From the IMG/VR virus record IMGVR_UViG_3300027737_000006, positions 1-35,743 of that record: 35,743 nt of DNA. One strand, 5' to 3'. The translations under genes were made by a program, and so were the position numbers. The notes below the pieces were generated by a model, which was not told where the DNA came from, made no database searches, and saw only the letters and a list, made by a program, of their open reading frames with translations. Of this stretch, positions 1,271 through 24,387 are shown in pieces. The DNA is from a virus. Each line of letters starts with the position of its first letter. Position 1 is the first letter of the stretch.

Positions 1271-3763
1271 ATGGATGAAATAATGTCATATAACTTTCCA
1301 GAATACCAAGACCCCAATATGCTCCCTCAGAATGAGCAAGATGCTTATTCACCGTACGAATCACCAGAAGACTTTTCCGAAGAAGATTTCAATGCCGCCC
1401 GAACGGGGGAGGTAGAACATCAAAAGTCTGCCTCTGCTGGCGGCACCTTTTATGAAAACTTAGCGTTAAAAATGCAGGACAACGAGCTTGTGGCTATCGG
1501 TGGCGAGCTGATGGAAGATGTCGATAACCAACTTAAAATGAAAGAAGAATGGGAATCCTCCATTGCCACAGCTGAGAAGTATCTAGGCCGCAAGATTGAA
1601 GAACCACAAAACGAAGAGGGTCGAGAATGGCGTTCAACCGTTTATGACACCACGCTGTCAACCGCTGTCTATCGAATCTATTCTGTCTATAAGCGAGAAC
1701 TCTTCCCCCCTAGCGGCCCCTGCAAATCTGAGATAGAAGGGATTGCCACCAAGGAAATCAACGAAAAGGGTGAGCGTCGAAAGATGTTCGCCAACTATGC
1801 CTTAACGGTAGAGGACAAAGGCTACTACCCTGACTCCGATGACATGTTATTCACCATCATCTTTACTGGTTCAGCTTTCAGGAAGGTCTTCATGGACCCG
1901 ATGACCGGGAAGCCAAAAGCAAGGTTCATTAAACCCCAAGACTTTATCTGTGATTTGAATTGCACCTCTTTGCTGGAATCTCAAAGCTTAGGGTACCGCT
2001 ATAAAGAAAGTAAGCGTGATATTCTTCAGCTTCAAGAACTAGGGAAGTACGTTAAGTTTGACTTAGGAATGCCTGCTGATTCTGATACGACTGAATCCGT
2101 TATTGATAAAACTGCTCGCGAAGAAGAGGGAATTGTCCTTCAGACGATGGAGAACAAAACCTTATTTGAGGTTCATGAACGGCACGTCTATTTAACTAAA
2201 GATAAATTAAGGGATGGTGACCCTCTCGCCACTGATGAAACTAAGCTATATCCTTACAGAATCACAGTGGTTGACCGAAAAGCTGTAGAAATTGTTAGAA
2301 ATTGGAAAGAAGAAGATGAGCTCCGCACCAGAATCCCTAACTTTGTGCATTATAAGTTCTTGCCCGGAATGGATAATTTGTTTGGTGTTGGGATGGCTCA
2401 TTTGGGAGGTTCTAACGCTATAACCTTGACGACTATTTTGCGTCAAATGATTAACAAGTTATCCTTAAATACTTTCCCTGGCGGCATTAAAACAACGACG
2501 GTACGCTCTGAAGATAATCTTAGAGACCCAAGCCCAGGCGAATGGTTAGAAGTAGAAACGGGCGGCCAACCTTTAGGCGAATGTTTTGCTGAGATGCCAT
2601 ACCCTCCCCCAAGCGCTCTCTTTTTTGAAATATTCAAAAGCGTTCAAGAAGGAACATTTACTCAATTAGGGGTGGCTGACACCAATATTCCGGAGAACTC
2701 CAACCAAACGCCAGTCGGAACAACGATGGCAGCGGTTGAAGTAGCTAACCGGATGCAATCCGCTTCTCTTTCGTCGCTTCATACCTCTTTACGCTACGAG
2801 TTTGAGCTGCTCTTTGACTTATGGGCTGAATGCCTGCCGGATGAGCCTTATCCCTTTGCGGTTCCAGGATTCGACGGCGCTATTATGCGCTCAGATTTTG
2901 AAGACCATATTAATACCGTCCCCGTTTCTGACCCAAATGTCTTAACAAGTACTCATAGATTGATGCAGGCGGAAGGGCTTTCGCGTATAGCTGCTGAAAA
3001 CCCAGACCTTTATAGTCAGCGAGAAGTTCAGAAACGTATGCTGGAAGCGATGGGCGTTGAAAATATCGATGAGATATTACCCCCTGAGCCAACTCCTTCA
3101 TCTTCCGATGCAGTCAGTGAAAACATGATGATTCTGCAAGGCGAAGGAATAACCATTACGCCAGAACAAGATGATGAGGCACATAACATCGTTCACAACA
3201 TCTTATTGGAACAAATGGAAGCGGACCCATCCCTACTTCAAATCAATCCGTCAGCCAAATATCAATTGACGCAACATATTCAAAAGCACTCCGCCTCTCA
3301 ATTGGTTAAACAGGCCAGAGCTGAAAATAAATATGCTTTCCCAGATGTAGAGCCAGATGGTTATTTAGATATTCCAGAAATTCAGAATCAATTAAGCATG
3401 ATGAATGCAGAAGAAGGCATTAAACAGAAGGAAGCGGCAGACGCGCAGGCAATGGAAGATAAGCAAAATCAATTATTGCCACAACAAGTGATGTTGGAAG
3501 ATATTAACCAACGCCGTGAAGCCGAACAAATCAGAGCTGAAATGGCTCGTATGAAGATTGAGTTCGAAGAAAGAATGGCCGTGATGAAGATGGAATTTGA
3601 AAAACAAATGAGTGAAAAGAAAATAGAGTCCGAGTCCTTCAGGGAACAACTGAGGTTTGAGGCTGACACAGTTAAGCTAGAAGCAGATAAAGAAATGGCT
3701 CGCGAAAAAAACGAGCATGACTTAACCCTTGAACAAATGAAGCAACATACCCCAGGAGTGTAA
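1271..3763 (+). CDS. Portal protein (head-tail connector)
   Basis: This encodes 830 residues, a usual size for long podovirus portals. As a dodecamer at one capsid vertex, the portal seeds the prohead, docks the terminase and holds the tail. The N-terminus is acidic and disordered (to about residue 60). The core carries family-typical stretches such as IKPQDFICDLNCTSL, VGMAHLGG and a TPVGTTMAAVEVANRM region in the clip/stem half. The last 110 residues are a long charged coiled coil, consistent with a barrel or internal extension. Position before the scaffold and capsid genes supports the call. There is no clear Shine-Dalgarno before 1271. An in-frame ATG at 1283 is an alternative start. Confidence 0.9.
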   Translation: MDEIMSYNFPEYQDPNMLPQNEQDAYSPYESPEDFSEEDFNAARTGEVEHQKSASAGGTFYENLALKMQDNELVAIGGELMEDVDNQLKMKEEWESSIATAEKYLGRKIEEPQNEEGREWRSTVYDTTLSTAVYRIYSVYKRELFPPSGPCKSEIEGIATKEINEKGERRKMFANYALTVEDKGYYPDSDDMLFTIIFTGSAFRKVFMDPMTGKPKARFIKPQDFICDLNCTSLLESQSLGYRYKESKRDILQLQELGKYVKFDLGMPADSDTTESVIDKTAREEEGIVLQTMENKTLFEVHERHVYLTKDKLRDGDPLATDETKLYPYRITVVDRKAVEIVRNWKEEDELRTRIPNFVHYKFLPGMDNLFGVGMAHLGGSNAITLTTILRQMINKLSLNTFPGGIKTTTVRSEDNLRDPSPGEWLEVETGGQPLGECFAEMPYPPPSALFFEIFKSVQEGTFTQLGVADTNIPENSNQTPVGTTMAAVEVANRMQSASLSSLHTSLRYEFELLFDLWAECLPDEPYPFAVPGFDGAIMRSDFEDHINTVPVSDPNVLTSTHRLMQAEGLSRIAAENPDLYSQREVQKRMLEAMGVENIDEILPPEPTPSSSDAVSENMMILQGEGITITPEQDDEAHNIVHNILLEQMEADPSLLQINPSAKYQLTQHIQKHSASQLVKQARAENKYAFPDVEPDGYLDIPEIQNQLSMMNAEEGIKQKEAADAQAMEDKQNQLLPQQVMLEDINQRREAEQIRAEMARMKIEFEERMAVMKMEFEKQMSEKKIESESFREQLRFEADTVKLEADKEMAREKNEHDLTLEQMKQHTPGV

Positions 3764-3766
3764 ATC

Positions 3767-4951
3767 ATGATGATACCAAAAGGCAGAGGAATTCCTCACG
3801 AACTTAAAGTAGGTAAGTCTGGCTATAACGACAGAGACGATGTAATGCGCAACAAAGCGCATCGAGCAATGGATGGAGATTTGAAACAGGTGAGCAAACC
3901 TTATTCTCCTGAAAGCGCATCGAGCCCAGGCAATAGCAAATTGATTCAAGGTTACGCTAAAGGCGGCCACGTTAAAAAAGGTCATAGAATCCCAACGGAT
4001 ATGCATATACCAACGCAGCCTAAGAGTTGCATGCCAAAGAAGACGCCTGTTACTCGCGTTAAAAGACATGGTGGTGTCATGCAAGGCGACCACGGTCCTA
4101 ATCATGGTGGACCCGGTCATGAAGTGGCTGTTCAAGGTTCAAAAGGACCCCATTTAAAACATGGTGGGATGCCTCGTCACAAAAGACATCATGAGCATAT
4201 GTTGCATGAGAGCTTAGGCGGAAGTATTAAGAAAGGACTTAGTAAAGTTGGAAAAGGGCTTAAGACAGCCGCAAAAGTCGTTAAACCTTATGCAAAAGCG
4301 GCTTATAACGCATCTAAACCAATCTTAAGAGAAGTTGCTAAGAAAGGGATTGATTACGGCAGTAAAGCTTTAGGCGCTGCCGCTACGGGAGCTGCAACAG
4401 TTGCAGGCGGACCAGCCGCTGGTGTTGCTGCTGGGTACTTAGCTTCTAAAGCCAGTAAGAAATTGGGCAATTATGCGACTAAGAAAGCTGGATTGAAGCG
4501 TGGCGGTGAACATCATGAGCATCATCATATGGCTCATAAAGGTTTTGGTGGCATGTTAAAAGGAGCCGCAAAAGCTGGCATGGCTGCTGCAAAACCTCAT
4601 TTAAAGGAAGCGGCCAAACAGGGCGTGAAACATTTATCTGAGAGAGCAACCGAAAAAATGAATGGTATGCGTCACGGTGGCCATTATGGAATCGGTGGAA
4701 TGTTAAAGAGCGCTGGAAAAACGGCTTTAAAGAGTGCCGCTAAGCAAGGTATTGAACATATGGCCAGCAAAGCCGCGACTATGCGTCATGGTGGCGATAT
4801 GCATCATCATCTTGGTATTGGCGGGATGCTCAAAAGTGCTGGCAAAACGGCATTGAAAGCGGCCGCTAAAGAAGGAGTTCAACATTTAGCAAACAAGGCT
4901 TCTACGATGCGTCATGGTGGTGTAAAAAAAAAGCTAATGGCGGGGATATGA
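3767..4951 (+). CDS. His/Lys/Ala-rich protein with three amphipathic helix repeats
   Basis: This encodes 394 very basic residues, starting 3 bases after the portal stop with CAGGAG (3753-3758). The N-terminal third is rich in Lys, Gly and His with recurring HGG. Residues 150-235 are Ala/Lys helices plus a Gly/Ala hydrophobic stretch (TGAATVAGGPAAGVAAGYLA). Then three copies of one unit, about residues 260-305, 308-343 and 350-385, each run GGMLK, then an Ala/Lys amphipathic helix, then MRHGG. Such helices can bind membranes or nucleic acid. Adenovirus protein VI and core proteins are analogies of plan, not homologues. A similar plan recurs in the gene at 23500-24387. The stop overlaps the start of the lipase-like gene. 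Function unknown; packaged virion protein is my inference. Confidence 0.75.
   Translation: MMIPKGRGIPHELKVGKSGYNDRDDVMRNKAHRAMDGDLKQVSKPYSPESASSPGNSKLIQGYAKGGHVKKGHRIPTDMHIPTQPKSCMPKKTPVTRVKRHGGVMQGDHGPNHGGPGHEVAVQGSKGPHLKHGGMPRHKRHHEHMLHESLGGSIKKGLSKVGKGLKTAAKVVKPYAKAAYNASKPILREVAKKGIDYGSKALGAAATGAATVAGGPAAGVAAGYLASKASKKLGNYATKKAGLKRGGEHHEHHHMAHKGFGGMLKGAAKAGMAAAKPHLKEAAKQGVKHLSERATEKMNGMRHGGHYGIGGMLKSAGKTALKSAAKQGIEHMASKAATMRHGGDMHHHLGIGGMLKSAGKTALKAAAKEGVQHLANKASTMRHGGVKKKLMAGI
4544..4921 (+). repeat. Three in-frame repeats encoding amphipathic helices
   Basis: Coding repeats lie at about 4544-4681, 4688-4795 and 4814-4921. The second and third are closest: both encode IGGMLKSAGKTALK, then an Ala/Lys helix ending MRHGG. 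The first is longer and more diverged. They look like tandem duplication inside one gene. Confidence 0.75.
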
Positions 4952-5538
4952 GTTTAGAGTTTGCGAAGGAAGCCTATAGCAAATCTCCAAGAGAGAATGT
5001 TAATGGCTACATGCTAGATAAAAGTCTTTCCAATAAGAAGACTTATACCTATCACAATCCTGAGACAAAACAGACTTATATTGCCCACAGGGGAACAGAC
5101 CCTAAGGATAAGAAGGATTTGAAGAATGATTTCTTAATCACGACAGGTTTGTTAAATAAATACACCTCTAAGCGTGTTAGGAATGCAGAGAAAATAGCCA
5201 AAGGGGCGCAAGATAAGTATGGAACCAACATTGAAAACGTTGGTCATTCTTTAGGCGCTACTATGGCTGAAAAGACTGGAAAGAAATTGAAAGTCGAGAA
5301 CAGTAAGGTAACGGGATATAACCCAGGAATGTCTCCATTAGATATTCCAAAAGGATTGTATAACAAAGCCAAGTCTTATATCGCTCCTAATTCGAAAGAC
5401 AGTCAAAAGATGAAGAATGTCACTAGACATACTACAGGCGTTGACCCTATTTCGATGAGCGGTATGATTCATGCAGGTAAAACCGTTCTGCATAAGCCTA
5501 AGCAATTAAATGTCCATGGATTAAGCAATTTTAGTTAA
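4948..5538 (+). CDS. Lipase-like alpha/beta hydrolase (class 3 lipase type)
   Basis: This encodes 196 residues, with an ATGA overlap to the preceding gene. Class 3 lipase landmarks occur in order: YIAHRGTDP at 44-52 (the HRGT strand, oxyanion region), a D..ND segment after it, GHSLGA at 99-104 with nucleophile Ser101, GYNPG at 123-127, GVDP with Asp166, and NVHG with His190. The Ser-Asp-His order and spacing form a complete potential triad, so the protein may be an active esterase or phospholipase. It is shorter than typical bacterial lipases (about 250 or more residues) and has no signal peptide. Similar compact lipase-like proteins are known in large and polinton-like viruses of eukaryotes. 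Its place in the virion operon suggests it is packaged or acts during entry or release; that is inference. Confidence 0.75.
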   Translation: MSLEFAKEAYSKSPRENVNGYMLDKSLSNKKTYTYHNPETKQTYIAHRGTDPKDKKDLKNDFLITTGLLNKYTSKRVRNAEKIAKGAQDKYGTNIENVGHSLGATMAEKTGKKLKVENSKVTGYNPGMSPLDIPKGLYNKAKSYIAPNSKDSQKMKNVTRHTTGVDPISMSGMIHAGKTVLHKPKQLNVHGLSNFS

Positions 5539-5552
5539 TAAGGGGAAATGAA

Positions 5553-5807
5553 ATGAAAAAATCAGTTAAGAAAGCAGGCGAAGGCCAAGCTGTTTACGAA
5601 CATCAAATGATGGGCGAAAAGAAAGGCTCCAAAGGCGCGCATGCAAATTATGAATCCACGATGCGTGGAGAACATGCAACGCATAAGCCTGCCGTTAAGA
5701 TGTCAAGCTACGCAAAAGGCGGCGTTGGAAAGATTCGTCATGAGCAAGCAACCATGAGCGGTAAACCAAAAGCACCAAAAGCTTTAGGTAAGATTGCTCG
5801 AGGATAA
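5553..5807 (+). CDS. Small basic protein, unknown
   Basis: This encodes 84 residues, with AAGGGGA before the ATG. It is Lys/Gly/His-rich and low in hydrophobic residues. It shares short phrases with the basic gene at 3767, such as YAKGG and HK/RHE segments, and the pattern YE....MRGEH. It may bind DNA or be a virion component made with the head proteins. The next gene starts one base after its stop. No family was recognised. Confidence 0.65.
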   Translation: MKKSVKKAGEGQAVYEHQMMGEKKGSKGAHANYESTMRGEHATHKPAVKMSSYAKGGVGKIRHEQATMSGKPKAPKALGKIARG

Positions 5808-5808
5808 G

Positions 5809-6027
5809 ATGCTCGATTTTTACAAAGACAATCTTTTAAAGAAAATTCAAGCGCGTCGGCAGATTTACGAAGTTCGTTTAGCTGCGGGCGCAATTGATAA
5901 AATTGAAGACTATAAACTGGTTGTGGGTAAAGTGCAGGGCCTCGATGAGGCTACTATTGTTATCCAGAATGCCTATAAAGAACTAATAGCTGGGAGTCAA
6001 AAAAATGAGCGAGTCGAGAAAGTATGA
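5809..6027 (+). CDS. Small helical head-region protein, unknown
   Basis: This encodes 72 residues from ATG 5809, which has CGAGGA about 5 bases upstream. An upstream in-frame TTG at 5794 exists but lies inside the preceding gene and is less likely. The product is a mixed-charge helical protein beginning MLDFYKDNLLKKIQ. Short proteins of this type are common between portal and scaffold genes in related phages, without assigned function. Its end overlaps the GroES-like gene by 23 bases. Confidence 0.65.
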   Translation: MLDFYKDNLLKKIQARRQIYEVRLAAGAIDKIEDYKLVVGKVQGLDEATIVIQNAYKELIAGSQKNERVEKV

Positions 6028-6484
6028 GCATACGGAAGAAGAGTTAATCAAAGCCCAACAGCAGATTGAGAAAGAATTAGGTTTCGAGCCAATCGAAACG
6101 CTTGGATATCATATTGCTGTTTTGATTTATGAGCCTAATAAAAACGCCGAAAAAGATAAAAAATTTACTTATAAAGACCCGACCACAGGCGAAATGAAGA
6201 AATCAATCTTTGAAATGCCTGAAGATTTATCTAAACGCGTCTCCGAAGAAGATAAATGGACTGAATGCGTTGGTCAGGTTATCTATTTAGGAGATGAAGC
6301 CTATAAAACAGGAAAGTTTGCCGATGGAAAAGTAAAACCTTGGTGCAAATTAGGTGACTGGGTAGTATTTCCTCGACACGAAGGTACACTTATTTCTTAT
6401 CGGGATAAGCCTGTCATGCTCATTCCTGATGACCGAGTCATCGCCAGAACCCCAGACCCATCCTATGTATCAAGATTTAAATAA
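6005..6484 (+). CDS. GroES-like co-chaperonin-fold protein
   Basis: This encodes 159 residues. The layout follows the Cpn10 beta-barrel: a first strand IAVLIYEP at 37-44, a long polar loop at about 46-78 where the mobile loop would lie, CVGQVIYLGDEAY at 88-100, VKPWCKLGDWVVF at 110-122 (the KxGD turn is typical), and a closing strand PVMLIPDDRVIART at 136-149. An N-terminal helix of about 30 residues is extra. Phage Cpn10 homologues such as T4 gp31 replace host GroES for folding the capsid protein, and this gene sits directly before the scaffold. It could instead be a virion-associated protein that reuses the fold. I am fairly confident of the fold, less of the function. Confidence 0.65.
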   Translation: MSESRKYEHTEEELIKAQQQIEKELGFEPIETLGYHIAVLIYEPNKNAEKDKKFTYKDPTTGEMKKSIFEMPEDLSKRVSEEDKWTECVGQVIYLGDEAYKTGKFADGKVKPWCKLGDWVVFPRHEGTLISYRDKPVMLIPDDRVIARTPDPSYVSRFK

Positions 6485-9294: not shown

Positions 9295-10206
9295 ATGGCA
9301 TTAACAACTACTGGTGATATCCCCTCGCTACTAAAAGCTGGTCTAGCGGCCGTTTTTGGCGAATATCCCAAGTATCAAGCGCAGTGGAGTGAAATATTCT
9401 CAACGTATCGTTCTGACAAACAAGTCGAACAAGAAGTTGAAATGCAATACCTACCTGTTGCGAGCTACCGACCTGAAGGCGCGCCTACTGATATTGCTTC
9501 CATGCAACAGAAGTATGTGACGACCTATGTCCATAAGTATTTCAGTATAGGTATGATTATCACAAGAATGGCCGTTATGGACAATCTTTATAAGTCATAC
9601 TTCCCAATGATTGCGCAAGCGATTAACGATGCGTTAGACCAAGCCCGAGAAATTATGGGTGCTTCCATTTTCAACAATGGTTTCAACCCAGCTTTCCCAT
9701 TAGGCGATGGTCAACCATTCTTCTCGTTACTTCATCCGATTACTGGTGGCGTTGTTGCTAACACCCCTGTAACTCCGGTTGATTTATCGGAAGCATCGAT
9801 TGAACAAGCATTGATTGCTATCCATCAATTCAAAGACCAAGCCGGATTAACCATCAAGACCAAAGCGGTCAAATTGTTAGTTCCAGCAACGGGTGAATAT
9901 GTTTCGGATAGGCTTTTAGGCTCACAATTTAGAACGAACACTGACATCAATGATATTTCCGCAATCTTCAATACTAAAGCGGTTCCACAAGGCTACAGAG
10001 TTAACCAATTCTTAAGCTTGTTGTTCCCTAACGCTTGGTATCTTTTAACTGATTCACCTAACTCACTCAAATTTTACCGTCGTGAAGACATCGATACCGA
10101 CGTTTACACAGAACCGCTAACCAATAACTTGATTATTACTGGTACCGAACGATATTCATTCGGGGTCAGTAACTTCAGAGGTGCTTACGGTTCACAAGGT
10201 ATGTAA
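9295..10206 (+). CDS. Major capsid protein (HK97-fold type)
   Basis: This encodes 303 residues, with TAGGAGAGATG upstream. An N-terminal arm is followed by mixed alpha/beta sequence. GDGQPFFSLLHP at 137-148 resembles the DG..LFS..HP motif in Mu gpT-like and related capsid proteins. The long helix YFPMIAQAINDALDQAREI (102-120) fits the spine helix, and the closing SFGVSNFRGAYG fits the last strand of this group. Position after scaffold and decoration genes agrees. No protease gene was seen nearby, so assembly is probably scaffold-dependent without cleavage. Confidence 0.88.
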   Translation: MALTTTGDIPSLLKAGLAAVFGEYPKYQAQWSEIFSTYRSDKQVEQEVEMQYLPVASYRPEGAPTDIASMQQKYVTTYVHKYFSIGMIITRMAVMDNLYKSYFPMIAQAINDALDQAREIMGASIFNNGFNPAFPLGDGQPFFSLLHPITGGVVANTPVTPVDLSEASIEQALIAIHQFKDQAGLTIKTKAVKLLVPATGEYVSDRLLGSQFRTNTDINDISAIFNTKAVPQGYRVNQFLSLLFPNAWYLLTDSPNSLKFYRREDIDTDVYTEPLTNNLIITGTERYSFGVSNFRGAYGSQGM

Positions 10207-23499: not shown

Positions 23500-24387
23500 A
23501 TGCTATCAGCACTCTCTCAGCTCGCTCCACTGGCAATCGACTTATTACCACAACGCGGTTATTCGCATGGTGGTCATCATCCTCATCATCCGATGCATAA
23601 TGGGGGCCATTATATGCATGGCGGCTATTCGCACGGTGGGTACGCTGAAGGCGGCCATATTCCGGGACATTATATGGATGGCGGCTATGAAGATGGCGGA
23701 ATGGGCGCAGTCCCTCAAGAAGGCTCCCCAAATGGCGGAACAACTGAATACGTACAACATGAGCCTAATATGAACGCTCCAATGGCGCCTTATGCCCATG
23801 GTGGATACGCTCATGGTGGTCATTATATGTACGGCGGTCATCACCCAATGCATGGTGGTGGTCATTATATGGATGGAGGTTATACCGAAGGTGGCCCTAT
23901 TCATCACAGTACCTACGCGGGCGGTGGTCATGCTAGAAGCCATCACCAAGCGCATCATTTGCATCACTATGGATTTGGCGGCGCGTTGAAGAGCGCTTAT
24001 AACGCTGCTAAGCCTGGGTTATCCCAAATGGTTAACAAAGGAGTAAATTATGCGGCTAAACAAGCTGGTAATGCGGCTCAAGGATATGCAACTAAGCATC
24101 TTGGAGCAGAAACAGGTCAAATGGTTGGAAATGCTGCACGACAAGGCGTTCAAGGCGCAGGACAACACATGCAAAACCGCGCTGGATTGTCTCGTCCCGC
24201 AGGTGCACCTCCAGCTCCTCCTGCACAAATTAATGTGCCACAACAACAGCAACCACAGCAGCAAGCAGCTCCTCAACAACAAGAGGAATATAACGCCATG
24301 AATGAATTGCCATTCGCGAACGAAAGACGTGGCGGCTATATGCATCACAGAGCAGGCGGTGGAGCACTTTACCCTTATCAACGATAA
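23500..24387 (+). CDS. His/Gly/Tyr-rich repeat protein with amphipathic segment
   Basis: This encodes 295 residues, with AAGGGGAAAT upstream. Residues 21-143 are made of HGGY, GGHYM and DGGY units with many His and no long hydrophobic stretch. Residues 158-225 are Ala/Gly/Asn/Gln helices starting GFGGALKSAYNAAKPGL, close to the GGxLK...AAKP units of the protein at 3767. Residues 231-262 are Pro/Gln-rich, and the end returns to RGGYMHHRAGGG. The His-rich part could bind metal or sense pH. It opens the ejection-protein cluster, so it is probably packaged; this is inference. Antisense open frames here come from codon bias. Confidence 0.7.
   Translation: MLSALSQLAPLAIDLLPQRGYSHGGHHPHHPMHNGGHYMHGGYSHGGYAEGGHIPGHYMDGGYEDGGMGAVPQEGSPNGGTTEYVQHEPNMNAPMAPYAHGGYAHGGHYMYGGHHPMHGGGHYMDGGYTEGGPIHHSTYAGGGHARSHHQAHHLHHYGFGGALKSAYNAAKPGLSQMVNKGVNYAAKQAGNAAQGYATKHLGAETGQMVGNAARQGVQGAGQHMQNRAGLSRPAGAPPAPPAQINVPQQQQPQQQAAPQQQEEYNAMNELPFANERRGGYMHHRAGGGALYPYQR

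Follow-up and report, generated by a model that had tools for sequence, protein, structure and literature searches.

A class 3-lipase-like hydrolase associated with a lysine- and glycine-rich KGG gene in the head operon of an uncultivated phage

The window analysed here is a 35,743-base IMG/VR virus record, considered at its full length, and represents a fragment of an uncultivated podovirus-like phage. Its head genes are arranged in the order portal, 394-aa protein, lipase-like protein, 84-aa protein, 77-aa protein, GroES-like co-chaperonin, scaffold-position protein and major head protein (Table 1). The preliminary description was therefore right in assigning the lipase-like gene to a head operon, as it sits between the portal gene and the GroES-like, scaffold-position and major head genes. 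Portal relatives of the window include Roseobacter phages CRP-901/902, Pelagibacter phages HTVC023P/027P and Caulobacter phage RW, and Planktothrix and Synechococcus phages are also found among them. Elsewhere in the window (23500-24387), among tail and ejection genes, a 295-aa His/Gly-rich protein is encoded that is weakly similar to the 394-aa protein (phmmer E=5.6e-6).

Table 1. Features of the window in and around the slot between the portal and GroES-like genes
Feature	Coordinates	Strand	Evidence or remark
SU10-type portal gene	1271..3763	+	Pfam SU10_portal E=2.6e-10, phrog_1216 E=3.9e-22; upstream neighbour
394-aa basic KGG protein	3767..4951	+	N-terminal module aligns with KGG proteins of relatives
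A_AAA_AAG heptamer (candidate only)	4927..4933	+	in frame with the 394-aa ORF
ATGA overlap	4948..4951	+	stop of the 394-aa ORF, start of the lipase-like ORF
Class 3-lipase-like protein, 196 aa	4948..5538	+	HRGT 47-50, GHSLGA 99-104, Asp166, His190
84-aa basic protein	5553..5807	+	C-terminal KGG modules; aligns with C-termini of relatives' KGG proteins
GroES-like co-chaperonin	6005..6484	+	phrog_3188 E=1.7e-8; downstream end of slot
Major head protein	9295..10206	+	Pfam Mu-like_gpT E=3.7e-8, phrog_371 E=7.2e-13

The lipase-like open reading frame is complete, with an ATG start, and its translation confirmed the motif set for which it had originally been singled out, comprising the HRGT strand, Ser101 in GHSLGA, Asp166 in TTGVDPISM and His190 in NVHGLSNF. 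The HRGT strand and the GHSLG elbow are shared with the class 3 lipases (Pfam Lipase_3, PF01764), as is, in the window sequence though not in its homologue, the order of Asp followed by His. The protein differs from these lipases in being short and very basic (pI 9.8) and in matching the Lipase_3 profile with only 17 bits (E=0.0055) against a curated cut-off of 22. Its homologue in another phage (contig L097, described below) reached 15.4 bits, and since both scores lie below the cut-off, the name class 3-lipase-like is used here. The best profile match was the NCBIfam family SA1320 (NF047388; E=2e-11, residues 41-170), although the members of this family are about 640 aa long and the score of 43.1 bits is far from the curated cut-off of 230, and a secreted lipase model matched at 1.8e-5. 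An Nlrc4 winged-helix match in Pfam, spanning 27 residues and lying below cut-off (E=1.5e-5; 0.0089 for the homologue), was taken as chance. The window protein had no PHROG match at E<=1, so that the esterase/lipase profile phrog_21992 was also unmatched, and the L097 homologue had none at E<=0.01. When the protein was aligned with two further lipases of phages and a DUF2974/Mbeg1-like protein encoded on a plasmid, GHSLG, His190 and the GT of HRGT were kept throughout. The window protein carries no obvious signal peptide.

An AlphaFold2 model of the window protein, built from three sequences, was of low confidence (pLDDT 47, pTM 0.44), and a single-sequence model was poor. In the low-confidence model, a strand at residues 42-47 leads into HRGT and a strand at residues 95-98 leads into the elbow and a helix, an order which fits a lipase. 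Foldseek placed class 3 lipases of fungi, together with feruloyl esterase A, at the top of its PDB matches for this model, and the same family headed the ranking of a second structure aligner (Z 5.4, 3.2 A over 95 residues). The structural comparison with class 3 lipases that had been proposed returned this family as best PDB matches, but at E=0.24 and Z 5.4 and from a model of low pLDDT. Five viral models matched with E<=0.001; the strongest of them reached 3e-7 at 36% identity, and the sole named entry among these five is a Qinghai Lake virophage protein, which weakly supports a likeness to lipases from small viruses of eukaryotes. Each of these tests is weak by itself, but profile, model and motif combined make it very likely that the window protein is a class 3-lipase-like alpha/beta hydrolase, and its presence in a phage head operon, as originally put forward, is supported.

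In ten relatives, the slot between the portal gene and the 77-aa/GroES genes is filled by one long ORF encoding a basic protein, here called KGG. Across these ten, an N-terminal module of the form G[YF]xGxD[SAN][ML]RxxA is mostly followed by SxxxxxKMRxYKxGG, the middle is variable and rich in Lys, Gly and His, and the C-terminal part contains VYExxMxGE...NYExxMxGE modules in several cases and ends in GG[VA][AG]KxR in all. In the window this gene is split, with the N-terminal module in the 394-aa ORF, the C-terminal modules (VYEHQMMGE...NYESTMRGEH, GGVGKIRHEQATMSGKP) in the 84-aa ORF, and the lipase between them; in BLASTP, the 84-aa protein matched the KGG protein of L097 at 58% over 26 aa. 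The ATGA overlap suggests that translation of the 394-aa ORF and the lipase may be coupled. In L097, the lipase gene precedes an intact KGG gene, and the lipase has a KGG-type N-terminus (AGYQGKKDSMRNRSQGIIKKAMGG) of its own and ends in a KKGG tail. Both phages thus link the lipase to KGG sequence, in the window through embedding and in L097 through fusion; the KGG genes of eight other relatives yielded no enzyme domain. In the open-licence library searched, no description was found of a lipase placed within, or joined to, a KGG protein of a head operon.

The 394-aa protein has a pI of 10.4 and a charge of +51, and the KGG protein of L097 a charge of +25. Within the 394-aa protein, the segments 156-173 (fraction 0.0004) and 185-202 (fraction 0.024) are more amphipathic than shuffled versions of themselves, and for the repeated GGMLK segments no such excess is clear (0.08-0.09). 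The C-terminal end consists of repeats (GIGGMLKSAGKTALK...MRHGG), with 113-nt copies at 4682 and 4808 that are 73% identical; a Bombinin match of these repeats in Pfam (E=0.0042, below cut-off) was taken as shared composition. Long variable inserts with helical segments and no Pfam match were observed in the KGG slots of L116 (1540-3183), L113 (5498-6952), L107 (2-931) and L168 (3525-4457), the last of which also holds an extra 311-aa ORF. Such variability among relatives suggests that the KGG slot accepts varied cargo.

Fusion of the two window proteins by a ribosomal slip was also considered. The lipase frame is open from 4870, and a -1 slip at the A_AAA_AAG heptamer would enter it, giving a product of 590 aa in which the 394-aa protein is fused to the lipase and the junction would span VKKKANGGDMSLEF. 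Heptamers of this type are rare in the window. The site is present in 55% of synonymous shuffles, which is no excess over what the protein sequence leads one to expect, and the hairpin behind it is ordinary. Programmed -1 frameshifting at this position is accordingly listed as a candidate only.

Close homologues of the lipase were found on two contigs, L097 (57 kb) and L098 (7.5 kb), which match each other at 100% identity across 7,473 bases and encode, in the same slot of another phage, a protein 68% identical to the window protein over 195 residues. They were reached only by an alignment-based scan, and a further scan including their sequences gave no additional homologues. Searches with the protein alone turned up no relative in phages, viral contigs or genome contigs, a plasmid search returned only distant lipase-like proteins (E>=0.09), and a DNA pattern search yielded no true relative; the protein pattern KYG-x6-GHSLG recovered L097 and L098 together with another phage lipase, L102. 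No third family member was present among 80 head-protein relatives, and Lipase_3 was absent from the other 46 of the 47 head-protein relative records searched whole. In the wider portal group, a single record out of 50 contained Lipase_3, elsewhere in the genome. The observation goes beyond chance, since the homologue occupies the same slot and the lipase motifs align with those of independent lipases.

The homologous protein keeps His100, Ser101 and His190, with GHSLGG at the elbow, while HRGT is replaced by HKGT and Asp166 by Ala (codon GAC in the window, GCC in L097/L098), and in L097 no Asp occurs anywhere after the nucleophile. A complete triad is thus present in one of the two known distinct sequences, that of the window. 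The full Ser-Asp-His set highlighted in the preliminary description consequently holds for the window protein but is not conserved in its sole close homologue. Loss of Ser101 and His190 from homologues had been named as an observation that would speak against a lipase, and both residues are retained. The remark that the protein differs from most decayed paralogues is unsupported, as the window holds no second copy and the only homologue lacks the Asp. With its triad complete, the window enzyme could be active; for the L097 homologue, in which the acid residue is lost, the best explanation would be that activity is reduced or that the domain has turned into a binding module.

Between the window and L097, dN was 0.23 for the lipase, compared to 0.41 for the head protein and 0.63 for the portal, and synonymous differences are near saturation in all three genes. 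Judged by these rates, the lipase is under strong amino-acid constraint and more conserved than the capsid protein, and, on the same sequence comparison, it entered the slot, or was exchanged, long ago. Recent lateral transfer, which the high identity might suggest, was rejected because the synonymous sites of the lipase are about as saturated as those of the head protein.

Class 3 lipases in phages are not especially rare, given the esterase/lipase family in PHROGs and two more phage lipases found here, L102 and G008. Like the window protein, the members of phrog_21992 are small phage proteins with GHSLG and His; unlike it, both L102 and G008 match this profile. In L102 (7337-7936, - strand), an unrelated phage, a 199-aa class 3 lipase gene lies directly upstream of the terminase and portal genes, and lipases near packaging genes therefore occur more than once. 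Phage class 3 lipases are hence already known (phrog_21992).

The role which we tentatively prefer, plausible though short of probable, is that of an accessory lipase domain which accompanies a basic head protein, itself probably internal, and which perhaps works on the membranes of the host during entry. In this proposal, the hydrolase would be an accessory domain within the Lys/Gly-rich KGG gene between portal and GroES, and the KGG protein, because it is strongly basic and placed among head genes, would be an internal head protein binding the packaged DNA. The lipase would be packaged with it by fusion, frameshift or co-assembly, be ejected with the genome and so reach the host envelope at ejection, where it may act on envelope lipids and help entry. 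For viruses of eukaryotes, packaged lipases with a role in entry are known or have been proposed. The lipases of polinton-like viruses and virophages are likewise viral and Lipase_3-like, and packaging for entry has been proposed for them (PMC4642659), though their hosts are eukaryotes and the window protein was compared with them by model matches only. Phage P1 packages internal head proteins, the Dar proteins, and ejects them with its DNA (PMC12810830); these protect DNA against restriction, and their likeness to the window lipase is one of a proposed way of working. Counting against an entry role are the relatives that do without a lipase, the Ala at Asp166 in the sole homologue, and the low-confidence model and sub-threshold Lipase_3 score. 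The bolder version, in which a virophage-like lipase tied by gene fusion in one lineage, and perhaps by -1 frameshifting in the other, to a DNA-binding internal head protein would be injected and breach the host membrane, is unlikely; if true, it would represent an entry lipase in a bacterial virus.

Other roles were weighed against the same data. As a lysis enzyme, the protein would be made late and attack inner or outer membrane lipids from within to aid progeny release, resembling LysB of mycobacteriophages in role. Such a function would agree with the finding that G008, which has a related portal, carries a canonical class 3 lipase with membrane-protein genes and a phage lysozyme gene within 2 kb, a placement that, in this one phage of the wider portal group, favours lysis, and with a GDSL lipase encoded close to holin and endolysin in a Pseudomonas phage, which was active and antibacterial in a chimera (PMC12173070). 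However, the G008 lipase is not close (17% identity in alignment), the genes near the lipase in the window and L097 have no holin, spanin or endolysin match, the position is between portal and GroES, the association is with KGG sequence and not with lysis genes, and an obvious signal peptide is missing, which together leave lysis an improbable role. A search for lysis genes with Phage_lysozyme in 12 relatives found none. In the G008 locus (L095:8804-11267), the lipase is 266 aa long, with E-values of 4.5e-19 and 4.3e-17, and after its gene come a small ORF resembling a lipoprotein gene, two membrane-protein-like ORFs and one for a phage lysozyme, an arrangement resembling a lysis cassette that includes a lipase.

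Within the KGG protein, the lipase fold could instead have a structural or lipid-binding function for which catalysis is unneeded. The homologue, which lacks any Asp beyond the nucleophile, reads HKGT in place of HRGT and is nevertheless under strong purifying selection, fits such a pseudo-enzyme, but Ser101, the GHSLG elbow and His190 are present in both sequences, which would be unusual for a purely structural fold, and the window protein has the full triad; we regard this role as rather unlikely, if a little less so than lysis. More doubtful is a hydrolase acting inside the infected cell on a different ester, for instance in host takeover or counter-defence, whose place in the late operon would be incidental. 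The patchy distribution, and the many substrates on which alpha/beta hydrolases act in general, would be compatible with it, whereas the window protein gave no match to any PADLOC model, and in each of the two phages the gene either lies within KGG sequence or is joined to it.

The passage of the genomes of short-tailed phages through host membranes is only partly understood. Under the preferred reading of an accessory lipase carried with an internal head protein, a lipase within a head-operon gene would make a lipid-acting step in phage entry directly testable. It also marks the KGG gene as a possible site for additional domains in phages of this group.
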